Shown: in pieces, positions 3,481 to 54,444 of the stretch
Layout of the letters: every line of letters starts with the position of its first letter
How positions within the stretch are numbered: position 1 is the first letter of the stretch
Assembly (NCBI RefSeq): GCF_001281315.1
Contig: NZ_CP012479.1
Location: forward strand, 3,534,001 to 3,598,000
DNA from: Arthrobacter sp. ERGS1:01
GTDB taxonomy: Bacteria; Actinomycetota; Actinomycetes; Actinomycetales; Micrococcaceae
Length of the DNA: 64,000 bases
Reading direction: 5' to 3'
Made by a program: the position numbers and the translations under genes
Notes under the pieces: model-generated
What the model saw: only the letters and a program-made list of their open reading frames with translations
Database searches by the model: none
Told to the model about the DNA's origin: nothing

Positions 3481-4938
<1,458 letters not shown>

Positions 4939-5037
4939 TCATGCATATAAGGCCCGAGCAGGAGGTGTTTTGGCGGGACTTGGCCCTAATTTTCGCTTCC
5001 GCCGGCCGCCCCTGATGACCGCGTGCGGTGCCGCTAG

Positions 5038-5700: not shown

Positions 5701-5765
5701 CCCACTACCCTAGCGACATATGCCAAATACGGCATCTTCAGGCAATATCGTAAGCGCGAAGTGTT

Positions 5766-5809
5766 GGGCCCACAGCTCCGCGGGCCCCAAGAAATCGCGC
5801 CAGCGATTT
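5766..5809 (-). terminator. acuC terminator region
   Basis: Two stems: GGGCCC/GGGCCC (5766-5787) and AAATCGC/GCGATTT (5792-5809). On the minus strand the second is followed by TTCTTGGGG. They lie between the acuC stop and the ArsR promoter. Confidence 0.5.
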
Positions 5810-5828
5810 ATTGGGGAGGAGCTGGGGA

Positions 5829-41358: not shown

Positions 41359-41745
41359 TCATGGCGTCGCACCGGCAGGCGGCGGTCCGGCCCTCGCAAT
41401 GCCGCGAGCCGGCCACGGCAACCGGGTATGCACCACCACTTCTACCTGGACGGTGTCGGAAGCCGACCCCAGCACTGCACAGGACGCGATCACGGCACCG
41501 TGGCGCGATGCCAGATCCGATGCCACCTGGCATGGGTCTCCCGTGGCCAGTCCTCGGGCCGCGTCCGCGGCAGCAAGTGCGGCAAGGTCGGCCGCCGTTG
41601 CCGCTTTGCCGGCAGCCACGGCCGCCTCGGCAAGGGACAAGATGCCCATCAGCAGAATCAGCAGCGCAATCGCCAGTCCTGCCGCCACGACAGTTCCGGC
41701 GCCGCCCTCACGCGAGTCCACGTTGCCAGCCAATCCAGCATCCAT
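41359..41745 (-). CDS. TadE/TadG-like minor pseudopilin (Rv3654c-like)
   Basis: About 128 residues. After a short N-terminus comes REGGAGTVVAAGLAIALLILLMGIL, the processed-pilin type hydrophobic helix with Glu near its start, then LAAADAARGLATGDPCQVA and a second Cys. It belongs to the TadE-like minor pilins at the end of actinobacterial Tad operons. It overlaps the preceding TadE-like gene; GTG 41721 is an alternative start that would shorten the overlap. Confidence 0.75.
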   Translation of the reverse strand: MDAGLAGNVDSREGGAGTVVAAGLAIALLILLMGILSLAEAAVAAGKAATAADLAALAAADAARGLATGDPCQVASDLASRHGAVIASCAVLGSASDTVQVEVVVHTRLPWPARGIARAGPPPAGATP

Positions 41746-42208
41746 ATCGTGGCTCTTCGCTCGCGACGACGCCGATGCCTGCCATTGCGAACTGCTTGGC
41801 CGCTGCAAGCTGCTCCGGCTTGCCCCGCGGCATGCCAACATCGGCTCCGGGCTCGTAGTTTTCAACCCTCGCGGTGGCGCGTGCCGTTTGTTGCCACGCG
41901 AGCACGGCGGCGAACGGCCCTGCAGTATGCCCAGAAATCGTGACAGTGGCATACCCATCAGTCAGCTCGACGCTCACGGAGACACCCTCCCCCGCAAGCC
42001 GTGAGGAAGCATCCACCGCCTGGGCGGACGATTCACCCCTGGCCAGTGACCGGGCTCCTGCCCTGGCGCCCTCCTCAAGCCTGATTTGCAAAATGGCGGC
42101 GCTCCCGCCTAGAAGCAGCAGGGCCAGCAATACGGTGATGGCAGGCAGTACCACGGCAAATTCCGCGGTAACGGAGCCCCGCATCTTGCTAGATAGCTGG
42201 CTACGCAT
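41708..42208 (-). CDS. TadE-like minor pseudopilin
   Basis: 166 residues. MRGSVTAEFAVVLPAITVLLALLLLG is the TadE-type helix with the prepilin-like Gly-Ser-Val-Thr-Ala-Glu-Phe start, followed by LRLEEGARAGARSLARGES-like sequence. Tad pilus minor subunits of this kind are cut by a prepilin peptidase at the membrane. It starts 48 bases downstream of the stranded 3' end of the pilin-like DUF4244 gene, so its transcription from the Tad promoter is now separated by the integrated element. Confidence 0.8.
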   Translation of the reverse strand: MRSQLSSKMRGSVTAEFAVVLPAITVLLALLLLGGSAAILQIRLEEGARAGARSLARGESSAQAVDASSRLAGEGVSVSVELTDGYATVTISGHTAGPFAAVLAWQQTARATARVENYEPGADVGMPRGKPEQLAAAKQFAMAGIGVVASEEPRYGCWIGWQRGLA

Positions 42209-42255: not shown

Positions 42256-42373
42256 CTACATGCTCAGCGCGGTACGGATGATGTTCAACAAGAACCCGCG
42301 GACCTCGTCGCTCTTGAGAATCACCACCAGCAAACCGGCAAAACCCACGGCCGCCAAGGTTGCGATGGCGTAT
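42256..42373 (-). pseudogene. 3' fragment of the DUF4244 pilin-like gene
   Basis: The minus strand reads Ala-Ile-Ala-Thr-Leu-Ala-Ala-Val then GFAGLLVVILKSDEVRGF to ...RTALSM and TAG. It is the hydrophobic helix and tail of a Flp/DUF4244 pilin with no start codon. It joins precisely to the 5' fragment at 51341-51516 to recreate TAEYAIATLAAVG. Confidence 0.9.
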
Positions 42374-42384
42374 GCGGATAGTAT
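42361..42384. other. attL of the integrated element
   Basis: Core TAT at 42371-42373, flanked on the left by the pilin gene arm TGCGATGGCG and on the right by the element arm GCGGATAGTATG. The integrase gene begins 18 bases after the core. Confidence 0.8.
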
Positions 42385-42390
42385 GTCAGC

Positions 42391-43839
42391 ATGGCTAGTC
42401 GAACCGCACGCAGAGCAGCGATCTATACCCGCATCAGCCGCGACATCGAGGGCACCGGCTGGGGCGTGGAGCGTCAGCGTGAGGACTGCGAGAAGCTCGC
42501 GGCGAGCATGGGCCTCACGGTCGTCGAGACGTACTCAGACAACGACGTCAGTGCATACTCAGGCAAGACCCGGCCGGCTTATGAGCGGCTACTCGCGGCC
42601 ATTCAGCGCGGCGAAGTTCAGACCGTCCTCACATGGAACACTGACCGCCTGCACCGCCGCACATCTGAGCTGGAACGCTACATCGACATCTGCCAGCCGC
42701 TCGACGTCGAGACTCACTCGGTCAAGGCTGGGCACATCAACCTTGACTCGGCGAACGGGCGCGCCGTCGCGAAGATTCTCGGCACCATCGCACAGCAAGA
42801 GTCAGAGCTGAAGAGCGAGCGCATCAAGCGCCAGAAGCGACAGGCCGCACAGTCTGGGCGCTACCTTGGCGGCCGGGTGCCGTGGGGCTGGCGTGTCGAC
42901 GAAGGCGTGATCGTCGAAGACACGGCCGCCGCTGACTTTATCCGCGCCGGCGTTCAGGCGATCCTCGACGGCCATTCCCTGATTGAAGTCACGCGGCGAT
43001 GGTCTGATGCCGGCGCTCGCAGCCTTGCCGGCAACCGCATGAATACGACTCAGGTGCGTCGTGTCCTGACGCGCTCGCGCAACGCCGGCATCGTCACCCA
43101 TCACGGCGAACCAGTCTCAAGTGACTGGCCGGCACTGCTGAGCGTCGAAGACTTCCGGGCCATGGAAGCAAAGCTGAACGACCGCACTATCCCCCGCCAA
43201 TCGGCCTCGAAATTCAAGTACCTGCTCAGCGGCATCGTTGCCTGCCATTGCGGCGAGTACATGACCGGCTTCGGTGCGGCCGCCACGGCCGAGCACCCGG
43301 AATACCGGCGCATGTACCGGTGCCGTGTCCACCAGCAAGGCGGGCGCTACGTGCCGGGCCACTCGACACGCGAAATGAACCGCTTGGACGGCTACGTGAC
43401 AGACGTCATCGCCGCCTACCTGCAACGCCCAGACCTGAAGGCCGCCGTCCTCTCGGCCGCCGCCGACATCGCCGACAGTGCCGTCAGCAGTGCGCCGGCG
43501 AAGGCGCTCGACACTGGGGCGCTGCTCACCCGCAAGCAAGACCTTGCGCGGCTCTTCGCCGCTGGCGTGATCGAAGAGTCACAGCTGATCGAAGGTACGG
43601 CACAGATTCGCTCTGAACTCGCTGACATCGAGCGGCAGGCAGTGCAGGACGGTGGCAGCAGCGAGCTAATAGGTGTGCTCATGGCTGCTGACCCTGGCGA
43701 AGCCTTCAGGGGCGCTGAGACGGGCGTGCAGCGCGGCGTCATTCGGGCGCTCGCGGATGTCCAGATTCTTCAGGGGAAGTCGACGCCCGGCGTCTTCAAT
43801 CCCGAACTCATTGCAATCACATGGAAGGGGGCCAACTGA
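42391..43839 (+). CDS. int: Large serine recombinase (integrase)
   Basis: 482 residues. The catalytic N-terminal domain has Ser in AIYTRISRDIEGTGWGVERQ, then the RPAYERLLAAIQRGEV and LHRRTSELERYIDIC region. The recombinase domain (GGRVPWGWRV; NRMNTTQVRRVLTRSRNAGI) and a zinc-ribbon domain (GIVACHCGEYMTGF ... YRCRVHQQGG) follow, with a coiled-coil C-terminus. It catalyses integration by cutting both att sites at a 2-bp core and normally needs a directionality factor to excise. Position beside attL is as expected. The stop overlaps the next start in TGATG. Confidence 0.93.
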   Translation: MASRTARRAAIYTRISRDIEGTGWGVERQREDCEKLAASMGLTVVETYSDNDVSAYSGKTRPAYERLLAAIQRGEVQTVLTWNTDRLHRRTSELERYIDICQPLDVETHSVKAGHINLDSANGRAVAKILGTIAQQESELKSERIKRQKRQAAQSGRYLGGRVPWGWRVDEGVIVEDTAAADFIRAGVQAILDGHSLIEVTRRWSDAGARSLAGNRMNTTQVRRVLTRSRNAGIVTHHGEPVSSDWPALLSVEDFRAMEAKLNDRTIPRQSASKFKYLLSGIVACHCGEYMTGFGAAATAEHPEYRRMYRCRVHQQGGRYVPGHSTREMNRLDGYVTDVIAAYLQRPDLKAAVLSAAADIADSAVSSAPAKALDTGALLTRKQDLARLFAAGVIEESQLIEGTAQIRSELADIERQAVQDGGSSELIGVLMAADPGEAFRGAETGVQRGVIRALADVQILQGKSTPGVFNPELIAITWKGAN

Positions 43840-44342
43840 TGCCCAGGAAACGGAACAACCGGACTAAGACGCTCACAGCCAAGTGGATGACTGATCAGCA
43901 AACAGCTGATCTTAGGCGCAATGGTTGGGAGATCGACCCTGAGGACACTTATGAAGCCGCTCAGCTGCGCTATATGGATAGCACGGGACAAGTCCCGATG
44001 TCAGCTGACGGTGACATGGTGGCGTATGTCGATCCTATGGAATACAGATTTCGAGCTGACGTCGTCCTTACGGCGCGCTGCGGTGCCTGCGGTGAAATTG
44101 CCTCGAAACTCTTCCTTTCCAAGAGCACGCCGGCCGCCAACCATGCGGCAATTGCACGGTACGCGTTCTGGGCGTCTCCAAAGGTCGCGGTGAAGTGCAA
44201 ACATCACGGTGTGCTGCCGCACCCGCGCGACTTGGTGCGGGCGATTTCCTCTGGCTTGCAAAAGGGCGACGGCCGGAAGTTCGGCCGTGACGACGGCAGC
44301 CAGCCGAAGGCGATCCTCAAGGTTCAGCCACTGTCGGTGTGA
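43839..44342 (+). CDS. Hypothetical protein with zinc-binding-like Cys/His cluster
   Basis: 167 residues, not recognised. The basic N-terminus (MPRKRNNRTKTLTAKWM) and a CGAC ... CKHHG pattern suggest a small nucleic-acid-binding or zinc-ribbon protein. The ATG at 43839 overlaps the integrase stop and has GGAAGGGGG before it. Because it is coupled to the integrase it is the best candidate in the element for a recombination directionality factor, but there is no homology evidence for that. Confidence 0.7.
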   Translation: MPRKRNNRTKTLTAKWMTDQQTADLRRNGWEIDPEDTYEAAQLRYMDSTGQVPMSADGDMVAYVDPMEYRFRADVVLTARCGACGEIASKLFLSKSTPAANHAAIARYAFWASPKVAVKCKHHGVLPHPRDLVRAISSGLQKGDGRKFGRDDGSQPKAILKVQPLSV

Positions 44343-44534
44343 GCAGATATGCTTAACTCGTAAGCAAATATTGAAGCTTTTGATGCAGGCTAGGGGCGCT
44401 TTAACCGGCAGTTCCCCGCTACGGCGGAAACCTGACTGAATGGGATTTACGGACATGCGGAGCAACGGCGCATGCAACATCCCACCCTGAAACCTTGAGC
44501 AAGTTCAGTAATTCCTAACAGGGGTTTCTGAACC
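44343..44534. other. 192-bp non-coding stretch of the element
   Basis: No credible gene. It contains partial inverted repeats (GCTTAACTCGTAAGC near its start, and TTCAG/CTGAA flanking the end). It separates the integration module from the replication module and probably holds the promoter for the latter. Confidence 0.4.
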
Positions 44535-44759
44535 ATGCCAGCAATCAAGTCCGTGCGATCCGCACGCGCATCTCTCGCAGTCTCTACGCGCTGGGGTCAC
44601 CAAGACCTGCCAGAGCGCAAGCGCGATCTCGAAACGGCGAAGCTCGCCGCGCACATTGCCGCCGTCGCAGCCACGGCACCACTCCCAACACCTGAGCAAG
44701 CGCAAGAGCTTGCCCGCCTGCTGATGCCGATCATGACCGGCGTTAAGGCAGGTGCGTAG
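44535..44759 (+). CDS. Small hypothetical element protein
   Basis: 74 residues, with a basic N-terminus and a helical, Ala-rich C-terminus (LPTPEQAQELARLLMPIM). Similar short proteins are common in actinobacterial phages and plasmids; function unknown. AGGGG lies in front of the ATG. It starts a run of closely packed genes to 47,465. Confidence 0.6.
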   Translation: MPAIKSVRSARASLAVSTRWGHQDLPERKRDLETAKLAAHIAAVAATAPLPTPEQAQELARLLMPIMTGVKAGA

Positions 44760-44761
44760 CC

Positions 44762-45169
44762 GTGCACTTGGAAACAGAAATCCCCGCCAGTCTGGCAACA
44801 GGCGGGGACTCACTCGAACAGCTACTAAAACTATCTGATGCTGACATCCTAGCTGGCCTCATGGACGGCGTGCAGGCCGCTCACGCGTTTTGCCCCGAAG
44901 ACTGGCGGGTTGACGCCGAAGCCGTAGTGCTGGAACTCGCACAGTCCGGCCGGGTGTTCACCGTCGACGACGTACGCCGCGCCGGCATCCCTGACCCGGA
45001 CATCCCGCAACGCTGGGGCGCGCTCATCGCCGTCATGAGCAACGCCGGCCTCATCACTGTCGTGGGTGCGCAGGAACACCGCATCAAGACGGGAACCAAG
45101 CAGCTCGTCCGCCAGTGGTGCGGCACCGCGAGCGCCGGCTGCACTGAGCTTTCAGGTGGTGCGTCATGA
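44762..45169 (+). CDS. Hypothetical protein preceding the replication gene
   Basis: 135 residues, GTG start two bases after the previous stop. The central stretch WRVDAEAVVLELAQSGRVFTVDDVRRAG and a following LIAVMSNAGLITVVG look like a winged-helix fold. Phage replication modules often carry such a helper next to the initiator. It overlaps the next start in ATGA, so the two are translationally coupled. Confidence 0.6.
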   Translation: MHLETEIPASLATGGDSLEQLLKLSDADILAGLMDGVQAAHAFCPEDWRVDAEAVVLELAQSGRVFTVDDVRRAGIPDPDIPQRWGALIAVMSNAGLITVVGAQEHRIKTGTKQLVRQWCGTASAGCTELSGGAS

Positions 45170-45954
45170 CGGGCGAGCGGACTCTCGAAGGCATTCACCG
45201 CTTCGACTGGGAAACAATCGTCCGCCGCGTGCAGATGCCTCTGGCGACGAAGGGAATAGCTCTCCTGCTCGCAACGTATTCGGACACGCCAACAGGCGAG
45301 AGTATTTATCCCGGGCATACCAAGCTGGCAGCCGTGGCCTGCGCCAGCAAGAGCACAGTGGAACGGGCGATCAAGACGCTGCGTTCGATTGGCCTGATCG
45401 AAGAGGTAGCACCCGGACGCTCACGCGGCAGGAACGGCGGCGGACTGGCTGCCGTGTACCGCCTGACTTTGCCAAGTGACCTCATGGAATCTGTCGCCAT
45501 GCTCGATCCAGATGAGAAGGTGCTGTGCGTCCCTGGGCATCCCCCGGCGGCCGGCAATGATCCGTCACCTGTGACGGTTGATTCTGCTAATGACCCGTCA
45601 TCGGTGCGGGATCATTTAGCGATTAATCATCCGTCAAATGACGTGAATCATCCGTCAAATGAGCTGAATCATCCGTCATTTAGCGATGAATCATCCGTCA
45701 CCCAGGACGACCCACCTACTCATTTACCACCTACACACTTAACACCTCCTCCTTCGTCACCTAGCGTGACCGTCACCAGCGCGCGAGACGTCAAGGCTCG
45801 CGGCGCTGACGACCGCGACGGATTGGAGATTGATTCCATGGATGATTTGGGCGGGGATGGAAAGGGGCTGTCCGAAGAGCAAAATCGACAGTGGCAGTTG
45901 CGGAAGCTCGAAGACATGATGAAGCGCGAGCAGAGCGGGGCGGTAAGAGCATGA
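45166..45954 (+). CDS. Phage-type replication initiator/replisome organiser-like HTH protein with in-gene iterons
   Basis: 262 residues. Residues 20-100 carry a winged HTH like those of phage replication proteins: TKLAAVACASKSTVERAIKTL and GLIEEVAPGRSRGRNGGG. A hydrophilic region with repeating Asn-His-Pro-Ser follows (about residues 135-180), which is the translation of the iterons at 45556-45700, then an acidic C-terminus. Initiators of this kind (lambda O-like in logic) bind repeats inside their own gene. No primase or helicase is encoded, so host or helper functions would be needed. Confidence 0.72.
   Translation: MTGERTLEGIHRFDWETIVRRVQMPLATKGIALLLATYSDTPTGESIYPGHTKLAAVACASKSTVERAIKTLRSIGLIEEVAPGRSRGRNGGGLAAVYRLTLPSDLMESVAMLDPDEKVLCVPGHPPAAGNDPSPVTVDSANDPSSVRDHLAINHPSNDVNHPSNELNHPSFSDESSVTQDDPPTHLPPTHLTPPPSSPSVTVTSARDVKARGADDRDGLEIDSMDDLGGDGKGLSEEQNRQWQLRKLEDMMKREQSGAVRA
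45556..45700 (+). repeat. In-gene iteron array (putative replication origin of the element)
   Basis: The 12-mer AATCATCCGTCA or a close variant occurs at 45556, 45589, 45625, 45646, 45667 and 45689. The last four are exact copies spaced 21-22 bases, two helical turns; the first two are variants (AATGATCCGTCA, AATGACCCGTCA) at 33 and 36 bases. TCATTTAGCGAT occurs twice among them. An AT-richer stretch (about 45701-45755) follows and could be the unwinding region. Confidence 0.75.
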
Positions 45955-46154
45955 ACACGATGGACAAGATTCGGGCGGCTCTTGCCGGCCTCAGTGCTGT
46001 CGATACGGCGGCCGCTGTCGAGCAGTTGCGGGGAATGCTCGCAGGACTGCCAGAGGACGGCAGGAGCGCCACTGACGGCCTGCTCAGGGCTGACCTAGAT
46101 CTGTTCCTGCTGGGCTACGACGCCGGTACGCGTGCCGCGACCGGGAGGGGCTGA
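45951..46154 (+). CDS. Small hypothetical element protein
   Basis: 67 residues beginning MNTMDKIRAALAGLSAV and ending ATGRG. It is helical, with a Leu-rich core. The ATG overlaps the replication gene stop in ATGA. Function unknown. Confidence 0.6.
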   Translation: MNTMDKIRAALAGLSAVDTAAAVEQLRGMLAGLPEDGRSATDGLLRADLDLFLLGYDAGTRAATGRG

Positions 46155-46156
46155 CC

Positions 46157-46336
46157 ATGACGCCGCTAACGGACACGAGCCGCACCGCCGACAGCTGGCC
46201 CACACACCGCGCAAAGGCCCGCAGGCGACGCACGAGCGAGCACACGGGCTACTCGTCACGTATCGCTCGCGAGCACCTCGACAGGGTCGAGCAAAGAATG
46301 ATTCAACGGCTGATACAAGCTCGCAAATCACGGTAA
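46157..46336 (+). CDS. Very small basic hypothetical protein
   Basis: 59 residues, starting MTPLTDTSRTADSWP and ending QARKSR. It is strongly basic (AKARRRRTSEH). The ATG is two bases after the preceding stop and follows GGGAGGGG, the best ribosome site in the module, which supports translation despite its size. Confidence 0.6.
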   Translation: MTPLTDTSRTADSWPTHRAKARRRRTSEHTGYSSRIAREHLDRVEQRMIQRLIQARKSR

Positions 46337-46450
46337 AGACGGCACACTCACGGCAAATGCACGACACGGGCACCGTCCCACAACTGCCCTCAAAACGCCG
46401 AAAGAATTAAAGCAACCGCACAACGCGGCCACCATATGGAAGGCAATAAA

Positions 46451-46855
46451 GTGACTCTCGCACCGCTCAACACCAAGACCGGACTCCCCGAAATGCTTAC
46501 CGCCGCGCAGGCTCAGAAGGTCGGCGTCATGCTGCACCTGTTCTTCGCGCGCGCAACCGACAAGGAACTCAGCGAACCAACATCGACGGACGATCTTGTC
46601 GCGCTCATCAAGATGGGAATCAAGGCCGGCGACAAGGCCGCCGCAGCAGCCGCAGCGGTCGCCGCGCCGGCCCCGGCGGTGAAGATGTCCGGGCAGGTGC
46701 TTTTCAATGCGGGCAGCGGCAGCTACGACCCCGTAGGCGCACGCGCAAAGGAAATCCGCGACGCGGAAACCATCCGTCTCCACAAAGAGAAGTACGGCGA
46801 CATGACCGATGCCGAGATCGACCTTCTCCACCTTGCCGACGCAGCGGGCATCTAG
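46451..46855 (+). CDS. Hypothetical element protein
   Basis: About 134 residues from GTG 46451, which has GGAAGG at good spacing; ATG 46436 in frame is the alternative. It is helical, with an Ala/Pro stretch in the middle and a DMTDAEIDLLHLADAAGI C-terminus. Not recognised. About 115 non-coding bases precede it. Confidence 0.6.
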   Translation: MTLAPLNTKTGLPEMLTAAQAQKVGVMLHLFFARATDKELSEPTSTDDLVALIKMGIKAGDKAAAAAAAVAAPAPAVKMSGQVLFNAGSGSYDPVGARAKEIRDAETIRLHKEKYGDMTDAEIDLLHLADAAGI

Positions 46856-46858
46856 GAA

Positions 46859-47011
46859 ATGACTCGCATGAGACAGATTGACATCAGGCTCCCCGAGTCA
46901 CTGATCAGCACCCTCGACCAGCTGGGCGCGGCATCAGGACTCAGCCGAGCCGCAACCATTCGCACGCTGCTCGCCGGCGCAGTCGCGAGTCCAGGCACAG
47001 ACGATGAGTAG
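46859..47011 (+). CDS. Ribbon-helix-helix (CopG-like) DNA-binding protein
   Basis: 50 residues: MRQIDIRLPESLISTLDQLG then GLSRAATIRTLLAGAV. This is the beta strand and two helices of a minimal ribbon-helix-helix regulator. It begins three bases after the previous stop and overlaps the start of the TerS-like gene by eight bases. It is likely a repressor or copy-control protein of the element. Confidence 0.75.
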   Translation: MTRMRQIDIRLPESLISTLDQLGAASGLSRAATIRTLLAGAVASPGTDDE

Positions 47012-47465
47012 CCGGCTCCCCGTCGATCTGTCCGTGCTCGAAAAGGAAACCCGCGCAGTCCAGCTAAAGACCGAAGGGTACAGCTACGACGACATTGCGG
47101 TGGCAGTCGGCTACTCGAACCGCAGCGCAGCCCACAAGGCCGTCGTGCGGGCACTGAACCGCCGGCCAGCCGAGAGCGTCGACCAAATGCGAGAAGTCGA
47201 AGGCCTGCGGCTCGAAGGCATGAATCAGACGCTAGCCGAGATCATCAACAGCGAAGCCGCCAGCTTCGACGAGAAGATCAAAGCGATCAACGCCGCCGTC
47301 AGAGTGTCCGAAAGCATCGCCAAACTCTTCGGACTCTATGCACCAATCAAGACGGAAACAAGCAACACCGGCACGATCGAAGTCGTATTCAGTGCTGCAC
47401 TCGCGCCGCAACGTCACGGCATGCAGGCGGCGACGCTGGAAATCGATGAGCCAGACCTTTTGTGA
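47004..47465 (+). CDS. Terminase small subunit-like protein
   Basis: 153 residues. An HTH (AVQLKTEGYSYDDIAVAVGY then SNRSAAHKAVVRALNR) is followed by REVEGLRLEGMNQTLAEIIN, IKAINAAVRVSESIAKLFGL and YAPIK. This layout matches small terminase or terminase-adjacent DNA-recognition proteins of actinobacteriophages (ends ...KLxGLxAP). There is no large terminase in the element. A lone terS is a hallmark of phage satellites, which use it to redirect helper packaging. The assignment rests on pattern, not alignment. Confidence 0.6.
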   Translation: MSSRLPVDLSVLEKETRAVQLKTEGYSYDDIAVAVGYSNRSAAHKAVVRALNRRPAESVDQMREVEGLRLEGMNQTLAEIINSEAASFDEKIKAINAAVRVSESIAKLFGLYAPIKTETSNTGTIEVVFSAALAPQRHGMQAATLEIDEPDLL

Positions 47466-47499
47466 CCAGCTCGCAGGACACACATAGGGCAGGACACGC

Positions 47500-47530
47500 G
47501 AGCGCCCGGCGGACAATCTGCCGGGCGCTC
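47500..47530. terminator. Bidirectional hairpin inside the element
   Basis: GAGCGCCCGGC and GCCGGGCGCTC with a nine-base loop, between the convergent TerS-like and YrhB/Imm35-like genes. Confidence 0.8.
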
Positions 47531-47538
47531 CCTGCTGT

Positions 47539-47949
47539 CTATTCCTCGTCGCTGGGAACGTCGCCGACGGGCGTGAAGGTGTTCAAATAGGCGAAGTTGT
47601 AGAGCGATGGAAGCTCGATCAGTTCGCCGGTGATCTTGTCGACGAGCACCGGGCCTTCGCCGACAGGCTGGAACGCATAGTCATTGTCGATCAGCAGATC
47701 ACGCGAGCCGTCGATGATCTGCCAGTGGCGCGGACTCTCGTAGCCGTAGGCGGCGACCATGTAGTGACCCGGCCGGCTGCTGCCACGGCGGGCGCTGGCG
47801 ACGATCTGGCGCGCAGCCTCGAAGGTCACGGGCGGGTGCTGGCTGCGGTCGGTCACGGCGCTCTCTCGCTCTCGTCGTAGTGGCTCCAATTGGCTCACGT
47901 TGTCAGGTTCCGTTGCCGTTGTCCATGGGACTTGTTTCGAACTGTTCAT
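47539..47949 (-). CDS. YrhB/Imm35-like protein
   Basis: 136 residues from ATG 47949. VTFEAARQIVASAR, GYESPRHWQIIDGSRDLLID and VGEGPVLVDKITGELIELPS follow the order seen in YrhB/immunity protein 35 domains, small globular proteins found as immunity proteins or alone. No toxin gene is adjacent, so a defence or accessory role is only suggestive. It is divergent from the second serine recombinase; its start codon sits inside the palindrome at 47947. Confidence 0.55.
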   Translation of the reverse strand: MNSSKQVPWTTATEPDNVSQLEPLRRERESAVTDRSQHPPVTFEAARQIVASARRGSSRPGHYMVAAYGYESPRHWQIIDGSRDLLIDNDYAFQPVGEGPVLVDKITGELIELPSLYNFAYLNTFTPVGDVPSDEE

Positions 47950-47974
47950 ACATAAACGGAACCCTTTATGTATG
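47947..47974. promoter_or_regulatory. 28-bp palindrome spanning the divergent recombinase/YrhB-like starts
   Basis: Perfect arms CATACATAAA and TTTATGTATG around CGGAACCC. The initiator codons of both divergent genes fall within the arms. It could be the recombinase's crossover/res-type site, an operator for both genes, or both. Confidence 0.65.
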
Positions 47975-48651
47975 ATCGAGCTATGAGAACGCCTGAAACG
48001 CTCGCCGTCGTCGGCTACATCCGAGTATCCACGTCCAAGCAAGACGTCAGCCCCGAAGTGCAACAGGCCGCCCTCGAAGCCGAAGCAGTGCGGCACGGCT
48101 GGGCGCTCACCATCTACCGCGAGAACGCCGCGTCAGCGACGAGCCTGAAGAACCGGCCGATACTCGCTGATGCACTCGCTCAGCTGAAAGCCGGCCGCTT
48201 TGACGCGCTTGCCGTGTCCAAGCTCGACCGACTCAGCCGCAGCGTTGCCGACTTCGCCGCCATGCTCGAAACAGCGAACCGGCAACGCTGGGCGCTGATC
48301 TGCCTTGACTTGGGCATCGATACTTCGACAATCACGGGTGCGGCCATGGCTCAGGTGACCTGCACATTCGCTGAGATGGAACGGAAGAAGATCGCGGAAC
48401 GCACGAGCGCCGCCATGCGAGTCAAAGCCGCAGCCGGGCAACACATGGGCCGCCGTAGCGTGCTCGACGTCGCCACCGTTCAGCGCATCTCCGGCGACCG
48501 CGCGGACGGCCTCTCATTGGCCCGCATCGCCGCCGGCCTCAACGCCGACGGCATCCCAACGGCGACCGGGAAGACATGGTACGCGTCAACCATTCGTCAG
48601 GTACTCACGAGCGCCAAAGCGCGCGATTTTGCAACACTTTGCAACAAGTAA
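47968..48651 (+). CDS. Small serine recombinase (resolvase/invertase family)
   Basis: 227 residues. The catalytic domain has Ser in VVGYIRVSTSKQDVSPEVQQ, then the SKLDRLSRSVADFAAMLE signature and a long E-helix (EMERKKIAERTSAAMRVKAA). A C-terminal Hin-like HTH (RISGDRADGLSLARIAAGLN) ends the protein. ATG 47968 or ATG 47983 may start it. It is unlike the 482-residue integrase and is too short for the large-serine type. It could resolve multimers, invert DNA or act in excision. Confidence 0.85.
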   Translation: MYDRAMRTPETLAVVGYIRVSTSKQDVSPEVQQAALEAEAVRHGWALTIYRENAASATSLKNRPILADALAQLKAGRFDALAVSKLDRLSRSVADFAAMLETANRQRWALICLDLGIDTSTITGAAMAQVTCTFAEMERKKIAERTSAAMRVKAAAGQHMGRRSVLDVATVQRISGDRADGLSLARIAAGLNADGIPTATGKTWYASTIRQVLTSAKARDFATLCNK

Positions 48652-48751
48652 TAGCAAGTAAAAGCCACAGGGAACTTGTCAGAATCTGTAGCACCGCGTA
48701 ACGTGTGTGGCACGACGAGATCGGCGAATGCGCCGGCCACGTTGACCGCCT

Positions 48752-48774
48752 AGAGCCCCTCATTGAGGGGCTCT
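48752..48774. terminator. Hairpin terminator
   Basis: AGAGCCCCTC and GAGGGGCTCT with a three-base loop, between the convergent recombinase and DUF3800 genes. Confidence 0.8.
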
Positions 48775-48780
48775 CAGTGC

Positions 48781-49506
48781 TTAAGGCATCCAAAAGCGTT
48801 CGTGATGGACGGCCGGCGACAACTTTGCTGACAAGTCCTTGCGGGCCTTCAGTGCCCTCGGATGCGCACCCCTGTCGCAGCACTTTCTGTTGTAGAGGTA
48901 GGCGGCAAGGTCGGCCGCCTGAAGGCCCGCGTGATAGTGACTATCATCAAAACGAACCGGCTGGATAATTCTTGACAGCGTGCTGCTTCGATAACCCGGA
49001 GTACCGGTTTGGCTGAAAAGTTCGATCATGGCGGCATGCTGGGCTTGGCCCGGTTCCTGGTCAGCCATGACCAACACGTCAAGCTGTTTCTGCCGCGCAT
49101 ACTCGTCCACCCTTTCGAGTACATGCCGCAGCACGACCTCATGCGGATCGTGCGGATTCGAGTAGCGAGCATTTTGCCGCTCAACGTCCATCCCTTGCAG
49201 AAAGACTTTTGCCCCACTGTCGACAATGGCAGTAAGAGCCTTGCCGTAGACGCTGGCCGCCGCGCGATGCTTGCCCGCGATCGGCTCCCATCCATTCCGC
49301 TGCTGCATGATCTCATGCCCGTGCAGCTCAGTCTGAGGGTCAACGCCGAATGCAGAATGAGCGTAGGACATGACCCCCCGAAACCCGGCGGCGAGGTCGA
49401 AAAGGCCGATCATGTCGACCACGACGGCGCTCACACAGTATTTGTTCTTTTGGTCTGGATAGGACTCATCTACGAAGGCAACAAGCATTCCATCATTAAG
49501 GCACAT
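48781..49506 (-). CDS. DUF3800 domain protein
   Basis: About 241 residues. The family landmarks are present: Asp-Glu-Ser near the N-terminus (LVAFVDESYPD), a mid-protein acidic segment (LDVLVMADQEPGQ) and a C-terminal LQAADLAAYLYNRK. The fold is RNase H-like, with acidic residues suggesting a metal-dependent nuclease. DUF3800 proteins are scattered through phages, mobile elements and defence islands; no biochemical role is settled to my knowledge. ATG 49506 and ATG 49488 are both possible. It is transcribed towards the recombinase. Confidence 0.82.
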   Translation of the reverse strand: MCLNDGMLVAFVDESYPDQKNKYCVSAVVVDMIGLFDLAAGFRGVMSYAHSAFGVDPQTELHGHEIMQQRNGWEPIAGKHRAAASVYGKALTAIVDSGAKVFLQGMDVERQNARYSNPHDPHEVVLRHVLERVDEYARQKQLDVLVMADQEPGQAQHAAMIELFSQTGTPGYRSSTLSRIIQPVRFDDSHYHAGLQAADLAAYLYNRKCCDRGAHPRALKARKDLSAKLSPAVHHERFWMP

Positions 49507-49542
49507 TGGGACGGGGGAAACTACTCGACTACGCCCACAATC

Positions 49543-49691
49543 TGTGGATAAGTTGTGCAAAAGTAGACAATTTCTGTGCACAGCTTGTGAACTGACTGTG
49601 GATAACCATATTTTTTCTTGGAACGCCTGCCGAAAATCCCTAGAAACTCGCGCTTCGAACTCAAATTCGAGGTGCTATGGCCTGTGGATAA
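49543..49691. other. DnaA-box cluster in the element
   Basis: Three exact TGTGGATAA 9-mers (complement of TTATCCACA) at 49543-49551, 49597-49605 and 49683-49691, all in one orientation, with a TATTTTTTCTT stretch after the second. The surrounding 296-bp gap (49507-49803) has no other gene. By chance about 0.5 such 9-mers are expected in the whole window on both strands. It may be a host-DnaA-dependent origin or a DnaA-controlled promoter. Confidence 0.7.
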
Positions 49692-49803
49692 AGAGACGCT
49701 ACTTCTGCACACACCTGTACTAAATTAGAAGCCCAACTTGTGGAGAACCTTGACACCTAATCGGAGTTCGTTCCCGCGAACGCCGTGGTCATAGACTCGA
49801 GCC

Positions 49804-50133
49804 ATGGCGAAAGAGGGCAAAAAGGCGTGGCTGATCACCTATGAGCACGCATGGAAGGCCGGCGACGATGTCGCTGTCCTTGCCGTGCTGAACCCAGCCA
49901 CCGGACATGGCAAAGTCGAGGATGTCGTTGGCCTTTTCTGGCGCCAGCTTTCCCTGCGCGGTAGCGAAAAGCTTGCCTACATGAACCCCAAAGCCCCGCC
50001 TCCGTATAGGCCGAAGTGGGCAGCACCCGAAGAGTGCACCTGCGGGCACAGCCAAGTCGTCGTAGCTCGGCTAGTCACCGGGCTGCGAGCGTCCAATGAC
50101 GCAGGCTCGATCGACGGGCTGGTTTGGGATTAG
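49804..50133 (+). CDS. Hypothetical element protein
   Basis: 109 residues beginning MAKEGKKAWLITYEHAWKAG, with a CTCGHSQVVVARLVTG segment near the C-terminus. Not recognised. A TAGACT box six bases before the ATG would give a leaderless message. A GTTCG/CGAAC hairpin lies further up. It is oriented away from the DUF3800 gene and towards the membrane protein pair. Confidence 0.65.
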   Translation: MAKEGKKAWLITYEHAWKAGDDVAVLAVLNPATGHGKVEDVVGLFWRQLSLRGSEKLAYMNPKAPPPYRPKWAAPEECTCGHSQVVVARLVTGLRASNDAGSIDGLVWD

Positions 50134-50239
50134 TTGTCGACGGCGAAAGGCAAGTCAGCCTTAGCCTAAACACCCCAAGACCTAGCAAACTTTTCCGGAC
50201 ATCCGCATACTCGGCAGGTGCTAAGTCGACGCGGCGGCG

Positions 50240-50707
50240 CTACTTTCGTCGACCAAACAATCGCTTGAGTACGGACTTTGAAATGTACACCCCAAGCGAG
50301 AAAGAGACAGCAGCTGCGCCGAGCAATAGCACCCACACATATCCGGGGCTGATACCTTGGACGTTCGAAGGCCGAAGAAGCTCGTTGATGCCAATCCCGA
50401 AAAGGAAAAGCCCGATGGGCAGGACGATCATCATGCCTATGTTTGCGATCTCGTCAAGGCGCGACGCCAGCAGTTCTGCACGAGCATCCGTGACATGTTT
50501 CGATTGAACGTTGTCGAAGCCGTCAGCTTTGACTCGGGCCCGCGCTTCTAGTTGAATCCTGAAGTCCGCTAGATACTTATCGAGCAGTTCCCCCGCAGGC
50601 TGCGATAGTTCTGTTTCGCGAGCCTTGAACATGGACGGATCGCTTGGTTCGGCGACACCTGACACGCTTTCCTCAGGCGTCATCGTTGCCTCGTTCTTCG
50701 TCATCAA
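50240..50707 (-). CDS. Membrane protein with two transmembrane helices, second of a pair
   Basis: 155 residues. A soluble N-terminal helix-rich region (about 85 residues, LDKYLADFRIQLEARARVKA) precedes two hydrophobic helices, IGMMIVLPIGLFLFGIGI and GYVWVLLLGAAAVSFSLGVY, and a basic end (LKRLFGRRK). Its 5' end lies 35 bases inside the upstream gene, so the two are translationally coupled. Not recognised. Confidence 0.75.
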   Translation of the reverse strand: MMTKNEATMTPEESVSGVAEPSDPSMFKARETELSQPAGELLDKYLADFRIQLEARARVKADGFDNVQSKHVTDARAELLASRLDEIANIGMMIVLPIGLFLFGIGINELLRPSNVQGISPGYVWVLLLGAAAVSFSLGVYISKSVLKRLFGRRK

Positions 50708-51290
50708 CGTAGTCGTCGACTATGGCGCGGTAGTTCCATATGGAATCGGCCTCATCGTCGCGGGACGCCTGCTCATGGAGTGCATCGTTGCGCGCCTTGA
50801 GCAAGTCTCTTTCAGCCACGTCCAACTCATGCCAAGCATGCGAAATTTGGCTCTGAAACAGCGAAACTGCGGTCTCAAAGAGCGCCCGGCCGTTGCTCAT
50901 ACTCTTGCGCCAAGCTGCAAGGACTACCCCCATTCCTGACACAATGGACAGCCAGAGAAGCCCGTGGAGGATCCAATCCCTCGGAGTCTCGAAGATGTAG
51001 CTTCTGTAGAAGTAGCCAAAATACAGGCCGGTAACGGCGATCAGAATAGACAAATAGAGCGATAAGATCCACACTCTTTGCTCGATGATATGTTGGCGAC
51101 TCTGCAAGCTGTCGGTCGAATCAAGCAGTTCCACGATCTTGATTCGCTGCGCTCGTCGGGCAGCCTCGGCCGAAGCCGTCGCCGTTTCGAGCGCCTGCTC
51201 TGCTGCGATTCTCGCAGCTGTCTCTGCATTCTCGGGCACGGCTGACCCGTCATCTGAGGGAGGTCTGTCGCCGTATTGTCCCGTTGTCAT
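50673..51290 (-). CDS. Membrane protein with two transmembrane helices, first of a pair
   Basis: 205 residues. A long Ala/Glu coiled-coil (about residues 18-70, AETAARIAAEQALETATASA then EAARRAQRIKIV) leads to two hydrophobic helices (VWILSLYLSILIAVTGLYFG and ILHGLLWLSIVSGMGVVLA) and a soluble helical C-terminus ending in acidic residues. The gene is the last of the element, 50 bases from attR. A coupled pair of two-helix membrane proteins at an element edge is typical cargo; effector and immunity or superinfection exclusion are possibilities, not evidence. Confidence 0.75.
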   Translation of the reverse strand: MTTGQYGDRPPSDDGSAVPENAETAARIAAEQALETATASAEAARRAQRIKIVELLDSTDSLQSRQHIIEQRVWILSLYLSILIAVTGLYFGYFYRSYIFETPRDWILHGLLWLSIVSGMGVVLAAWRKSMSNGRALFETAVSLFQSQISHAWHELDVAERDLLKARNDALHEQASRDDEADSIWNYRAIVDDYVDDEERGNDDA

Positions 51291-51318
51291 GGGTCAATCC
51301 TACGGTGGTTACAATCTG

Positions 51319-51516
51319 CTAACTTGACATGACATTCGCATATTCGGCGGTCGCCATTCCCGTCTCAGAGCCGAGGTTTCGCAACTTCCTCCACGGTGTT
51401 GCGTTCCGTACCGATGGCAGGGCCGTTGCGCCGGGAAAGATCTCACGCACGTTGTCCAAAACGCCGGGATCGGTACTGGCCTGCGCCGCCGCACCGGGAT
51501 TGTCATTGGTGTACAT
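51319..51516 (-). pseudogene. 5' fragment of the DUF4244 pilin-like gene
   Basis: ATG 51516 (after AAGGAG) reads MYTNDNPGAAAQ ... RKLRNLGSETGMATAEYA, the leader and cleavage region of a Flp/DUF4244 pilin (Gly-Met-Ala-Thr-Ala-Glu-Tyr). At the attR core it passes into element DNA, adds Asn-Val-Met-Ser-Ser and stops. The hydrophobic helix needed for pilus assembly is absent. Confidence 0.9.
51328..51352. other. attR of the integrated element
   Basis: Core TAT at 51341-51343 with the element arm TTGACATGACATTCGCA on the left and the pilin gene arm TCGGCGGTCG on the right. Joining pilin arms across the core gives GATGGCG-TAT-TCGGCGG, the intact attB. Confidence 0.8.
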
Positions 51517-51712: not shown

Positions 51713-52309
51713 TCAAAAGATCGGGATCATGGCCACCACCACCGGAACAATTCCCAGGCAGACAAAGGCCGGAAGGGAACAGAGCCCCAAGGGCACTACA
51801 AGCCTGACCCCAAGCGCAGCTGCCCGCTTTTCCGCGTCACGGTTGAACTGGCGGCGGCGTTGATCGGCTTCGGCGTAGAGCAGCGGTGCCGCCGGGGCGC
51901 CCGTCAGCGCCGCGAAGCTCAATGCAGCGTGCAGTTGGGCCACCGGTTCAATGTGGCGAACGCCGTCCCAGGAATGTTGCCACGACGCACCGATTTGCAG
52001 GCCGGCCACCACCCGGGACAAACACTGGCCAATCTCCGGGTCAGCGATCCCGGCCACCAGCCGAAGTGCCCACGGTATGGAAAGCCCGGCGTCAAGGCAT
52101 GCACCCAATAGCTCCAATAGCAGCGGCACGTCCGAAACGCCTCCATCATGACGGGAATCAGCCCGGCGCTCAATGGATCTGTCATCCGGGGACCGTCCGG
52201 ATCGACCGCGCTCCGGGCCTGAGCGACGTCGCCAAGGGTAGGCGCGGTCCCGCCCCAAGAGCCAACATGCCGCTGCCAACAGCGCAAAGATTCCCATGGC
52301 CGCCGTCAT
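51713..52309 (-). CDS. tadC: TadC-like type II secretion F family protein
   Basis: 198 residues from ATG 52309 (ATGA overlap with tadB). Hydrophobic helices lie near the N-terminus (MGIFALLAAACWLL) and C-terminus (VRLVVPLGLCSLPAFVCLGI); between them is the cytoplasmic SDVPLLLELLGACLDAGLSIPWAL and the LGIVPVVVAMIPIF tail. It is an inner-membrane platform component of the Tad pilus machine. Confidence 0.83.
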   Translation of the reverse strand: MTAAMGIFALLAAACWLLGRDRAYPWRRRSGPERGRSGRSPDDRSIERRADSRHDGGVSDVPLLLELLGACLDAGLSIPWALRLVAGIADPEIGQCLSRVVAGLQIGASWQHSWDGVRHIEPVAQLHAALSFAALTGAPAAPLLYAEADQRRRQFNRDAEKRAAALGVRLVVPLGLCSLPAFVCLGIVPVVVAMIPIF

Positions 52310-53166
52310 CTGGTTCTCGAACCACTCAACGGACCGGGTCCACGGCGGAGGCCGGCCGGGCGAACTCCTGCGGGCCGGGAAGCGGCCGCGATCAAGCGGT
52401 TGGACCACCACCTCCCGGCAGCCACCAAGGCAAGCCCAAGTCCCAGGCACGCCCACCCCAACGGCCCACCCAGCAGCACCCCCACCGGGTTCACCCCCAT
52501 GGCCATGCCAAGTCCCAAACCCACAAAAGGCAGCCAGGTCAGCAGGCGCACCGTGGCACGGGGGCCGGCCAGGGCCGTTTCGCGAAGGGCTGCCGCATCT
52601 TGTTCGGCCTCAAGCCTGCCGGCCAGACGGGCCAACACGGCCGCAACCGGTGCCCCGCTCGCCTCGCAGATTTCAAAGCAGGCCGCCACTTCCAGCCACA
52701 TCCGGCGTTGCTGCCCACTCATCCGGACCGTACCGGGATTCCAACGAAGCGGGTGCGGCGCCGATGCCGCCTGCAGGACCGCCGCCCGCAAGGCCTCTGC
52801 AACCGGCAACCCCAAAAGGCAGGCTCTCTCGACGGCGATAACAAGGGCCAGGGTGGGACCCGTCGATACTGCCGCTCCCCCGGCGGCGACTCGTCCGGCC
52901 GGCCCAAATTCGGCGGCGAGGACTTCGGCCAAAGCACCCCACACGCTGGGACCGTTCCGCCCCGAGGCCAGAAGCGCTGCCAGCTGGCGCACAATTCTCG
53001 GCATGCCCATATCCGGCCCGCGCCTACGCCCCCGCCCTGACCAGCCCGCAGGATCCCGGGCGTTTTCGAGACCGGCCGCTTTGTCCTCGGGCGGCCACGG
53101 ACGGCGTCGAAGGGACATGGCGATGCAGGCCGCCGCCGTCAAGAGGAACACGGTTGCCGCCATCAT
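52306..53166 (-). CDS. tadB: TadB-like type II secretion F family protein
   Basis: 286 residues. N-terminal and C-terminal hydrophobic helices flank a conserved F-domain (ALVIAVERACLLGLPVAEAL, EVAACFEICEASGAPVAAVLARLAG). The gene starts three bases after tadA and overlaps tadC. Its helical F-domain is the partner of TadA in the inner-membrane platform. Confidence 0.83.
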   Translation of the reverse strand: MMAATVFLLTAAACIAMSLRRRPWPPEDKAAGLENARDPAGWSGRGRRRGPDMGMPRIVRQLAALLASGRNGPSVWGALAEVLAAEFGPAGRVAAGGAAVSTGPTLALVIAVERACLLGLPVAEALRAAVLQAASAPHPLRWNPGTVRMSGQQRRMWLEVAACFEICEASGAPVAAVLARLAGRLEAEQDAAALRETALAGPRATVRLLTWLPFVGLGLGMAMGVNPVGVLLGGPLGWACLGLGLALVAAGRWWSNRLIAAASRPAGVRPAGLRRGPGPLSGSRTR

Positions 53167-53169
53167 GGG

Positions 53170-54444
53170 CTACTGCTTACCGAGCGCTGCGGGGTCGATC
53201 CCCAGCCGTGACGACAACGCTTTCCAAGCGGCGCCCGCAAGAACTTCCCTGCCGAATAACGCGTAGTCATGTCCGTCAGTGCCGCCGGGGCCGGGACGCC
53301 CCAGCCGCAGTGCCGGCACCACTGCCAGCTGCCCATCCTGCAGGGTCACGGTGCCAATTTCGGAGACAACCCGCCCGGAGGCGGAGCGGTCCACATGAAC
53401 GACCACATCCAGCGCACTTGCCGCCTGAAGCGCCACCGCCTGAGGACTCATGCCGGCCAGGGCGCCCAGCGCCGCAAGCCTGGCAGGAACATCGGCGGCA
53501 CTGTTGGCGTGGATGGTCCCGCCGCCCCCACTGTGCCCCGTATTGAGCGCCATAAGGAGTTCACGCACTTCCAAGCCCCGGCATTCGCCCACGATCAACC
53601 TGCCCGGATTCATCCTCAACGCCTGACGGACCAACTCCTGAAGATCCACAACCCCGGTACCTTCGGCGTTTGCATGCCGGGCCTCCAAAGTCAGTACGTG
53701 CGGGTGGTCGGGTTCCAGCTCCGCGGCATCCTCGATCAACACCAGCCGTTCAGTGGCCGGGCACAGCCCCAGCAAGGTCGAAAGCAACGTGGTTTTGCCG
53801 GCTCCCGTGGCACCGCTGATCAGGAAGCTGAGCCGGGCACCCACAATATTGCGCAGTACTCCGGCCATCACCGGGTGGACGCAGCCGGCTTCCTCGAGCT
53901 CGGCCAGTGTAAAGACCTGCCGGCGTTTGATGCGCACTGAAAGCAGCGTGCCGGCGGACGAGATGGGCGGCAATACGGCGTGGATACGGTATCCCGGGGC
54001 AATCCGGACGTCGACGCACGGCGAACTCTCATCGAGCCGGCGCCCTCCCGAGGCGATGAGCCGGACCGCCAATGCGCGCAGGGCGCCCTCGCTTTCAAAC
54101 CCTGCGTCGACGCGTTCGGGGCCGTTACCTCGATCCAGCCACACGGAGTTTGGGGCGTTGACAAAAATATCCGTAACCTGCGGGTCCAGCGCGAGTGGCT
54201 GCAACGGCCCCAATCCACTCAACTCGGCACTGATCCTGTCCATCGCGAGCAGCGAACCGGCCGCCCCCAGCAGGCGTCCGCTATCCCGAACGGCCGCCGC
54301 CACGCGGAGATCGGTAAGGGGGCCGGATTCGGAGAGGACCGTTTGGCGGACGGATTCCAACAGTCCCGGATCCACTGCTGAAACCATGGGCGGCGATATC
54401 CGCGCCGGTTCAGAATAGGCTGCGGTGGCCAGATGCCGTGTCAT
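53170..54444 (-). CDS. tadA: TadA/CpaF-family secretion ATPase
   Basis: 424 residues. Walker A is LISGATGAGKTTLLSTLLGL, followed by the Asp box (LVLIEDAAELEPDHPHV), a Walker B-type RLIVGECRGLEVRELLMAL and a His box (GHSGGGGTIHANSA). These are complete. It powers pilus assembly or secretion. ATG overlaps the CpaE-like gene stop in ATGA. Confidence 0.93.
   Translation of the reverse strand: MTRHLATAAYSEPARISPPMVSAVDPGLLESVRQTVLSESGPLTDLRVAAAVRDSGRLLGAAGSLLAMDRISAELSGLGPLQPLALDPQVTDIFVNAPNSVWLDRGNGPERVDAGFESEGALRALAVRLIASGGRRLDESSPCVDVRIAPGYRIHAVLPPISSAGTLLSVRIKRRQVFTLAELEEAGCVHPVMAGVLRNIVGARLSFLISGATGAGKTTLLSTLLGLCPATERLVLIEDAAELEPDHPHVLTLEARHANAEGTGVVDLQELVRQALRMNPGRLIVGECRGLEVRELLMALNTGHSGGGGTIHANSAADVPARLAALGALAGMSPQAVALQAASALDVVVHVDRSASGRVVSEIGTVTLQDGQLAVVPALRLGRPGPGGTDGHDYALFGREVLAGAAWKALSSRLGIDPAALGKQ

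Follow-up and report, generated by a model that had tools for sequence, protein, structure and literature searches.

Within a 64,000-nucleotide stretch of the genome of Arthrobacter sp. ERGS1:01 (contig NZ_CP012479.1, positions 3,534,001 to 3,598,000; hereinafter the window, with coordinates counted from its first letter), we delineate an integrated element with a large serine integrase that divides the pilin gene of the host Tad (Flp) pilus cluster. The best overall explanation of the evidence is that this element is probably a phage satellite of the terminase small subunit (TerS) type that lives in, and breaks, this pilin gene. The larger finding is that the integrase family to which the element belongs concentrates on competence genes, above all those of the Tad pilus. 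An initial annotation made from the sequence alone had interpreted the element as an actinobacterial phage satellite; this remains the best reading of the contents, whereas the novelty of the class was overstated and the most informative fact was missed, namely that the attachment site lies inside a Tad-cluster pilin gene and that relatives of the integrase repeatedly occupy Tad and comM genes.

The existence of the element is confirmed, and its ends are set at a TA core by the empty sites of relatives and by the conserved arms of the rebuilt attachment site (attP). Comparison of the junctions with empty sites delimits an integrated element of 8,970 bp (42371-51342) that divides one host gene. 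The previously proposed boundaries (42371..51343, at TAT cores) hold, the cores being the two ends of this one interrupted gene, and ATA is common to both junctions. The rebuilt attP contains a dyad around TA in which 14 of the 22 arm positions match, a level equalled at 6 of 8,916 element positions. Moreover, one arm of each of the four same-site elements contains TGTCAAG(T) 11 bases away from the core, these elements being those of the window and of genomes G022, G233 and G234 (in the window arm the motif was read from the printed arm, the script pattern having caught an overlapping match there); the integrases of the latter three are 42-52% identical to that of the window. The GC content of the element is 0.600 vs 0.663 for the rest of the window. 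A site-specific integrase at one end together with defined attachment sites, here of the serine type with a TA core, is a trait of phage-inducible chromosomal islands (PICIs) of the Staphylococcus aureus pathogenicity island (SaPI) type. The features that define the insertion are as follows.

42371-42373, no strand assigned: left attachment core (TA/TAT), from comparison of the junctions with empty sites
51341-51343, no strand assigned: right attachment core (TA/TAT), from the same comparison
51340-51516, minus strand: N-terminal half of the pilin (DUF4244/Flp-type, G/MATAEY motif), from its translation and intact orthologues; the Pfam match to DUF4244 is below the cut-off (E 0.0082)
42262-42376, minus strand: C-terminal half of the pilin, from its translation (AYAIATLAAV...), its status as the second pilin piece in its own genome, and a 97% identical C-terminal half in G022

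The N-terminal half of the pilin terminates in ...ETGMATAEY at the right core, the C-terminal half, AYAIATLAAVGFAGLLVVILKSDEVRGFLLNIIRTALS, begins at the left core on the minus strand, and the two join in frame at the core. Because the core lies at the TAEY codons of the pilin, the insertion cuts the codons of a motif of the G/XXXXEY form, which is the Flp processing site (PMC4322843). At the insertion site, MATAEYAIA is found in 27 of the 28 printed intact loci, with L133 deviating. The pilin is present in all 58 genomes searched, including the window genome, and, judged by the reach of the hits, is split in three of these: at the same codons in the window genome and G022, and at another place in G013. 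The insertion in G013 (L134:1772 to L135; G013:C72:133106-167822), of about 34 kb, is unrelated, is located after ATLAAV, and carries another large serine integrase (L135:14788-16287) that is 25% identical to the window integrase; therefore, one pilin is targeted by two integrase types. The in-frame junction and the intact appearance of the attachment sites would also suit a regulated insertion, whereby excision under induction restores the pilin and the element serves as a switch rather than a block; we consider this improbable given that no directionality factor was identified in the element.

With respect to the contents of the element, the best reading, and one that we regard as quite likely on the basis of the predicted proteins, is a phage satellite that encodes TerS as its only packaging gene and would depend on a helper phage. 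The genes and other features of the element, followed by those of the flanking host Tad cluster, are listed below.

42391-43839, plus strand: large serine integrase, 482 aa (Resolvase and Recombinase domains; phrog_95, E 1.2e-91; 82% homologue in Paenarthrobacter ureafaciens)
43821-44342, plus strand: 173-aa protein, no significant family
44535-44759, plus strand: 74-aa small protein, with partial blastp matches in L081 (59% over 32 aa), L084 (33% over 58 aa) and L102 (44%)
44762-45169, plus strand: 135-aa protein, possibly DNA-binding (phrog_27658, function unknown, E 8.8e-6; AbiEi_4 below the cut-off)
45166-45954, plus strand: predicted replication initiator (Rep), lambda O-like (phrog_391, E 1.4e-9; HTH_36 below the cut-off)
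45556-45709, no strand assigned: iterons AATSAYCCGTCA, about six copies within rep, from a repeat search
46436-46855, plus strand: 139-aa protein, no family
47004-47465, plus strand: TerS (phrog_645, E 7.4e-26; phage homologues, phage gene order and fold)
47539-48096, minus strand: protein matching a phage 'immunity protein' (phrog_3585, E 5.4e-13)
47968-48651, plus strand: small serine recombinase of the resolvase/invertase type (Resolvase, E 2.5e-37; 67-70% homologues in L083 and L085)
48781-49581, minus strand: DUF3800 protein, cargo (PF12686, E 1.2e-10)
49804-50133, plus strand: 109-aa cargo protein, no family
50240-50707, minus strand: 155-aa cargo protein, hydrophobic stretches by eye, no family
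50673-51290, minus strand: 205-aa cargo protein, hydrophobic stretches by eye, no significant family
41708-42208, minus strand: host TadE minor pilin (PF07811, E 2.8e-6)
51713-52456, minus strand: host TadC-like protein (T2SSF, E 6.4e-14)
52306-53166, minus strand: host TadB-like protein, without a Pfam match, named from its position between TadA and TadC and from a counterpart matching at 51% in the L081 tad cluster
53170-54444, minus strand: host TadA ATPase (T2SSE, E 8e-47)

Most of the gene content proposed in the initial annotation is borne out by these assignments: the integrase at one end, the phage-type replication gene with iterons, the lone TerS-like gene, the second serine recombinase, and the cargo, which consists of the DUF3800 protein and family-less open reading frames (ORFs). 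An exception is the ribbon-helix-helix regulator, as no such family appeared when the element ORFs were scanned against Pfam and PHROG at E 0.1. The same scans detected no capsid, large terminase (TerL), portal, tail, relaxase, FtsK or type IV secretion system families, in agreement with the absences noted earlier, and no Stl-like repressor was recognised; PADLOC yielded no match for the seven element proteins submitted. Thus, as judged from family scans, the window element lacks the relaxase or FtsK/secretion genes of integrative conjugative or mobilizable elements as well as the structural and lysis genes of a complete prophage. It does share with SaPI-type PICIs a predicted initiator and origin of its own (the O-like Rep and the iterons), a TerS that, by homology, context and fold, could act as a packaging redirector, and the absence of terL, portal and tail genes (family scans and tblastn). 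The 74-aa protein is a candidate accessory or directionality factor; its partial matches at L081:12065-12193 and L102:9300-9545 are in elements of the window integrase family. The small serine recombinase is also shared with other elements (L083:9097-9777, L085:8634-9305 and L096:7609-8313; 57-70% alike) whose target genes differ.

The assignment of TerS draws on several lines of evidence. Its family, phrog_645, carries the label Rnase E, and tblastn with the protein retrieved 141 phage records, mainly from phages of Gordonia, Arthrobacter, Microbacterium and Streptomyces, all below 60% identity and variously annotated as terminase small subunit, Rnase E, helix-turn-helix (HTH) or hypothetical proteins. 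Two Arthrobacter phages, Abba and Lilmac1015, have the homologue as gene 1, immediately ahead of the large terminase, portal and protease genes. Among 19 viral contigs with a TerS homologue, a TerL match begins no more than 190 bp downstream in five (L012, L013, L015, L024 and L028). In L026 the downstream distance is 1.25 kb, and L030 has a weak prophage-type TerL match after the homologue; the queries used gave no TerL match in the other 12. The AlphaFold model of TerS (pLDDT 80.8, pTM 0.49) combines an HTH with a long helical hairpin and a beta hairpin, and a Foldseek comparison with viral models gave 13 matches at E<=0.001 (modest TM-scores, about 0.3-0.6), two of which are named terminase small subunit and three of which come from Arthrobacter phages. 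A fold search of the PDB placed Sf6 TerS on top at a non-significant E 0.52, and a sequence search against solved structures found no TerS. Homology and gene context upstream of the large terminase establish this protein, at the level of sequence, as a phage TerS, for which packaging activity can be predicted. A TerS search of genome contigs yielded three distant loci. A possible distant satellite was observed on an 8.4-kb viral contig (L014, IMGVR_UViG_3300031449_000034; 3583-6484), where a TerS 38% and a resolvase 46% identical to those of the window occur with a primase-like ORF and without a TerL match.

The integrase, Rep and TerS recur in pairs elsewhere: a 116,300-bp contig of Paenarthrobacter ureafaciens has the integrase (82%) and TerS (65%), one of 13,385 bp has Rep and TerS, and two of 5,030 and 7,507 bp have the integrase and Rep, these pairings being deduced from the equal sizes of the matched contigs. 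This recurrence bears on the possibility that the element is a decayed prophage, a remnant that has shed its former structural genes, as the presence of a phage-type integrase, an O-like Rep and TerS might suggest. The named genes, however, have open frames, and the relatives at the same site, 8-12 kb in length, are comparable in size and have no detectable terL, portal or tail genes, so that we assign decay a low probability and retain the satellite as the preferred reading. As a marker of such a satellite family, Rep was rejected: its relatives occur in 41 of 395 genomes and, by eye, the neighbourhoods of two of them (L052 and L054) are other integrated elements with tyrosine integrases, one of which holds a tape-measure-like ORF; hence Rep alone is not diagnostic. 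A scan of viral contigs with Rep found none, and the best relative in a scan of viral contigs with the integrase was 37% identical over residues 26-291.

Further related elements inserted in Tad genes, 11 in all and each of about 5-12 kb, were delimited, and 74 of their 118 predicted ORFs were scanned, the 44 left out being integrases, resolvases, host fragments and doubtful ORFs. In the Pfam tally, which covers all 22 families detected (the PHROG tally, of 25 of 62 families, agrees), Phage_capsid is found in four elements, HNH_3 in four, D5_N in two and AAA_25 in two, and Mob_Pre and Rep_OBD are found once each, both in the cpaF-inserted element of G298 (L097). No terminase, portal or tail family was detected by Pfam among the 74 ORFs, and tblastn with three TerL and one portal queries found no match in the 11 loci. 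The capsid carriers are inserted in the pilin (G234, at the same site as the window element, with a phage primase and a major head protein), in cpaF (G278 and G246, the latter with a helicase/primase-like ORF) and in tadC (G346, with a phage-type primase). L082:5950-9479 and L099:3715-7279 share, in different Tad genes, a layout of integrase, primase/helicase, an unassigned ORF that is scaffold-like by eye, and capsid, which makes them a minimal capsid-bearing type without a detected terL or portal. The pilin-inserted element of G233 carries as cargo ORFs resembling an MFS transporter and a TetR-type regulator (L083:6712-8843). The site-targeting family thus includes satellite-like elements with a capsid gene, at least one element of mobilizable type, and others with no nameable phage hallmark. 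The initial annotation had named two outcomes contrary to its reading, a TerS belonging to an unrelated HTH family and relatives that always carry conjugation or full phage modules; neither was found, Mob_Pre being present in one of the 11 relatives.

The targets of the integrase family extend well beyond the pilin. Among 295 genomes of the same family (Micrococcaceae, as judged from named homologues), 56 contain integrase matches at E<=1e-30, for a total of 69 matches including that of the window, and 65 integrase ORFs were scored (left out were G287:C7 and the second G108 match, neither of which was fetched, the second G296 match, whose frame is interrupted, and the second G330 match). When a distance of up to 150 bp between the integrase ORF and a Tad match is taken as adjacency, 35 of the 65 abut Tad genes (cpaF, 23; tadC, 6; pilin, 5; tadB, 1), the pilin cases L081, L083 and L147 being scored by the pilin half read upstream in the sequence; nine more abut comM, with matches within 56 bp, and four are undetermined. 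The domains identified in the neighbours are Mg_chelatase, ChlI and Mg_chelatase_C (ComM), DNA_processg_A (a DprA neighbour), T2SSE (cpaF), T2SSF (tadB and tadC) and TadE. The Tad share persists after clustering at 70% identity, with 30 of 58 clusters adjacent to Tad genes, seven to comM, 16 to neither, four unknown and one mixed (cpaF/none). Insertion positions vary: cpaF is entered at several points, the pilin in two areas and comM at both ends. A quick integrase tree implies that targets changed between Tad and non-Tad no fewer than 15 times, comM being counted as non-Tad (comM-adjacent integrases were entered as 'none' or 'unknown' because comM was recognised later). In other families of the order (Micrococcales, again as judged from named homologues), 10 of 25 loci are within 170 bp of cpaF (6), tadC (2) or comM (2), a possible undercount given that the loci were probed with window-family queries; L227, with a tadE match 492 bp away, was left uncounted. 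In a separate case, a single comM fragment in G321 (L060:3963-8058) lies between two serine integrases that differ from each other, an arrangement that would fit the entry of two elements into the same comM.

As a control, none of 50 tyrosine-recombinase loci of the same family has a Tad or comM match, and dprA lies beside 11 of them (10 of the 30 top-scoring and 1 of the 20 lower-scoring). Together with the high scores, this suggests that many top-scoring loci are xerC beside dprA, i.e., housekeeping Xer recombinases, for which the control is weak; for this reason the 20 lower-scoring loci, chosen by hand from the listed matches, were added. By a rough estimate, the Tad loci and comM together should make up well under 1% of such genomes.

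Micrococcus luteus belongs to the same family as the host of the window element. In this bacterium, both tad clusters and the Flp pilus are required for natural transformation (PMC4322843). In the window host, comEC, comM and the cpaF of a second cluster are open over their matched parts, and the pilin is the only broken gene among the few competence genes checked. Insertions of one integrase family, with cargo as varied as capsid, HNH and Mob_Pre genes, repeatedly in cpaF, tadB, tadC, the pilin and comM point to blocked transformation as the shared benefit. The explanation that we favour is that the competence pilus is disabled by small elements of a partly satellite-like nature, and the joint Tad and comM pattern seems best explained by a conflict over transformation. 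We hypothesize that, upon entry of a helper phage, the element would excise, the O-like Rep would fire the iteron origin, and the element-encoded TerS would steer the large terminase of the helper to a satellite pac or cos site, such that the element could spread inside helper particles. In its integrated state, the element would deprive the host of a subunit of the competence-type pilus, the uptake of homologous DNA would be blocked, and the element might thereby escape being cured by transformation. The window genome contains a resident prophage, a possible helper, with TerL, portal, capsid and tyrosine integrase genes (L268 and L269; G000:C3:1018000-1057800, near 1.02-1.05 Mb of C3). Extended to the order, the proposition is that a diverse guild of serine-integrase elements, some of them satellites, convergently uses the Tad competence-pilus genes, as the main target, and comM as its chief landing ground, shutting off curing DNA uptake; we consider the case for and against this generalization to be evenly balanced.

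Tad pili act as phage receptors in other bacteria, and an element that removes the receptor could exclude competing phages. Given that comM, which is not a surface component, is struck by the same integrase family, we rank such superinfection exclusion low, and an element that removed the receptor might also shut out its own helper; this exclusion appears quite improbable as the benefit of the insertions.

Several observations weigh against the interpretation of the window element as a satellite that, like its relatives, gains from disabling competence. The need for tad genes and Flp in transformation was shown in M. luteus only, a species other than the window host. In a genome search, the resident prophage has no detectable homologue of the window TerS, and therefore no helper is identified. 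TerS matches were found in two of 197 genomes, the window's own and one distant relative, so that the element is rare among those genomes; furthermore, tblastn did not find this TerS in the 11 Tad-inserted relatives, which means that it does not belong to the core genes of the family at large. Seven of these 11 have no capsid gene, and that of G298 combines Mob_Pre with a plasmid-type Rep domain. The latter combination would accord with an integrative mobilizable or conjugative element instead of a satellite; for the window element itself, in which relaxase, FtsK and secretion families are unseen and TerS points to packaging, this is very improbable. Finally, 17 of the 65 integrases abut neither Tad genes nor comM, and by eye lie beside varied genes, e.g., ORFs resembling phosphoketolase, glpD and ParA. 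Conservation and dispensability may be all that makes competence genes targets: large serine integrases often use coding attB sites and need conserved coding DNA that is cheap to lose, which Tad genes and comM would provide with no gain from lost competence. This neutral alternative, which we take seriously even as we judge it unlikely, has to account for at least five struck genes, for several positions in cpaF, the pilin and comM, and for integrases down to 28% identity. Moreover, we know of no function shared by the Tad pilus and ComM except transformation. We continue to favour the satellite in the pilin gene, and the conflict over transformation, as the preferred readings.

If these readings are correct, the idea that mobile elements sabotage competence extends to the Tad pilus, to Actinobacteria and to satellites as the agents, and it could be predicted which actinobacteria have lost transformability, and why. 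The insertions would then represent natural mutants for the theory of chromosomal curing and a source of serine integrases whose attB sites can be recognised within pilus genes, and a serine-integrase satellite with TerS alone would be added to those of actinobacteria.

Comparison with known systems places the element near, but not within, several described groups. SaPI integrases are of the tyrosine type. Like SaPI-type PICIs, the window element has an integrase, a replication initiator, a lone TerS and cargo, and no terL, portal or tail genes; unlike them, it uses a serine integrase with attB inside a protein-coding gene, and neither an Stl-like repressor or interference gene nor a helper is identified. 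Capsid-forming PICIs have genes for the capsid, protease, portal and connectors and for the two terminase subunits (PMC10690885); four of the 11 related Tad-inserted elements likewise carry a capsid gene of their own, whereas terL and portal are undetected in the window element and in all 11, none of which has the full set. The Streptomyces satellites MulchRoom and MiniFlayer, described in the same source, are also actinobacterial, but carry genes for the capsid and for packaging, those of the two terminase subunits among them, and have virulent helpers. Small actinobacterial elements below 15 kb have been suspected to be satellites (PMC10023795), and small Mycobacterium elements with serine integrases and capsid genes, as well as phiRv1, have been proposed as candidate PICIs (PMC10654092, which also treats phiRv2). 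The serine-integrase satellite class is therefore not wholly new, and the suggestion in the initial annotation that this is not a standard described class went too far. Like the window element, the mycobacterial candidates are chromosomal, some have serine integrases and replication genes, and their satellite status comes from gene content; unlike it, they are defined by an integrase and a major capsid gene, which four of the 11 relatives have and the window element, with its TerS, does not. The passages of PMC10654092 consulted mention no Tad or competence target.

Disruption of competence genes by mobile elements is already known. In Acinetobacter, comM is interrupted (PMC11472951), and Croucher and colleagues described prophages and other elements that interrupt comK, comYC, comFA and comM, and argued for an arms race (PMC4774983). 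Among the matches listed from the literature searched, with most subscription journals outside its scope, no title or abstract opening mentions Tad genes as integration sites, and the text of PMC4774983 has no occurrence of Actinobacteria, tad, Micrococcus, serine or Flp. The elements in that study resemble those described here in several respects: they interrupt the coding sequence of genes for transformation, their sites are convergent, related integrases differ in target, comM is hit in both sets, and comYC encodes the main component of a competence pilus. The present set differs in that the Tad pilus is its principal target and that its delimited carriers are small, at 5-12 kb.

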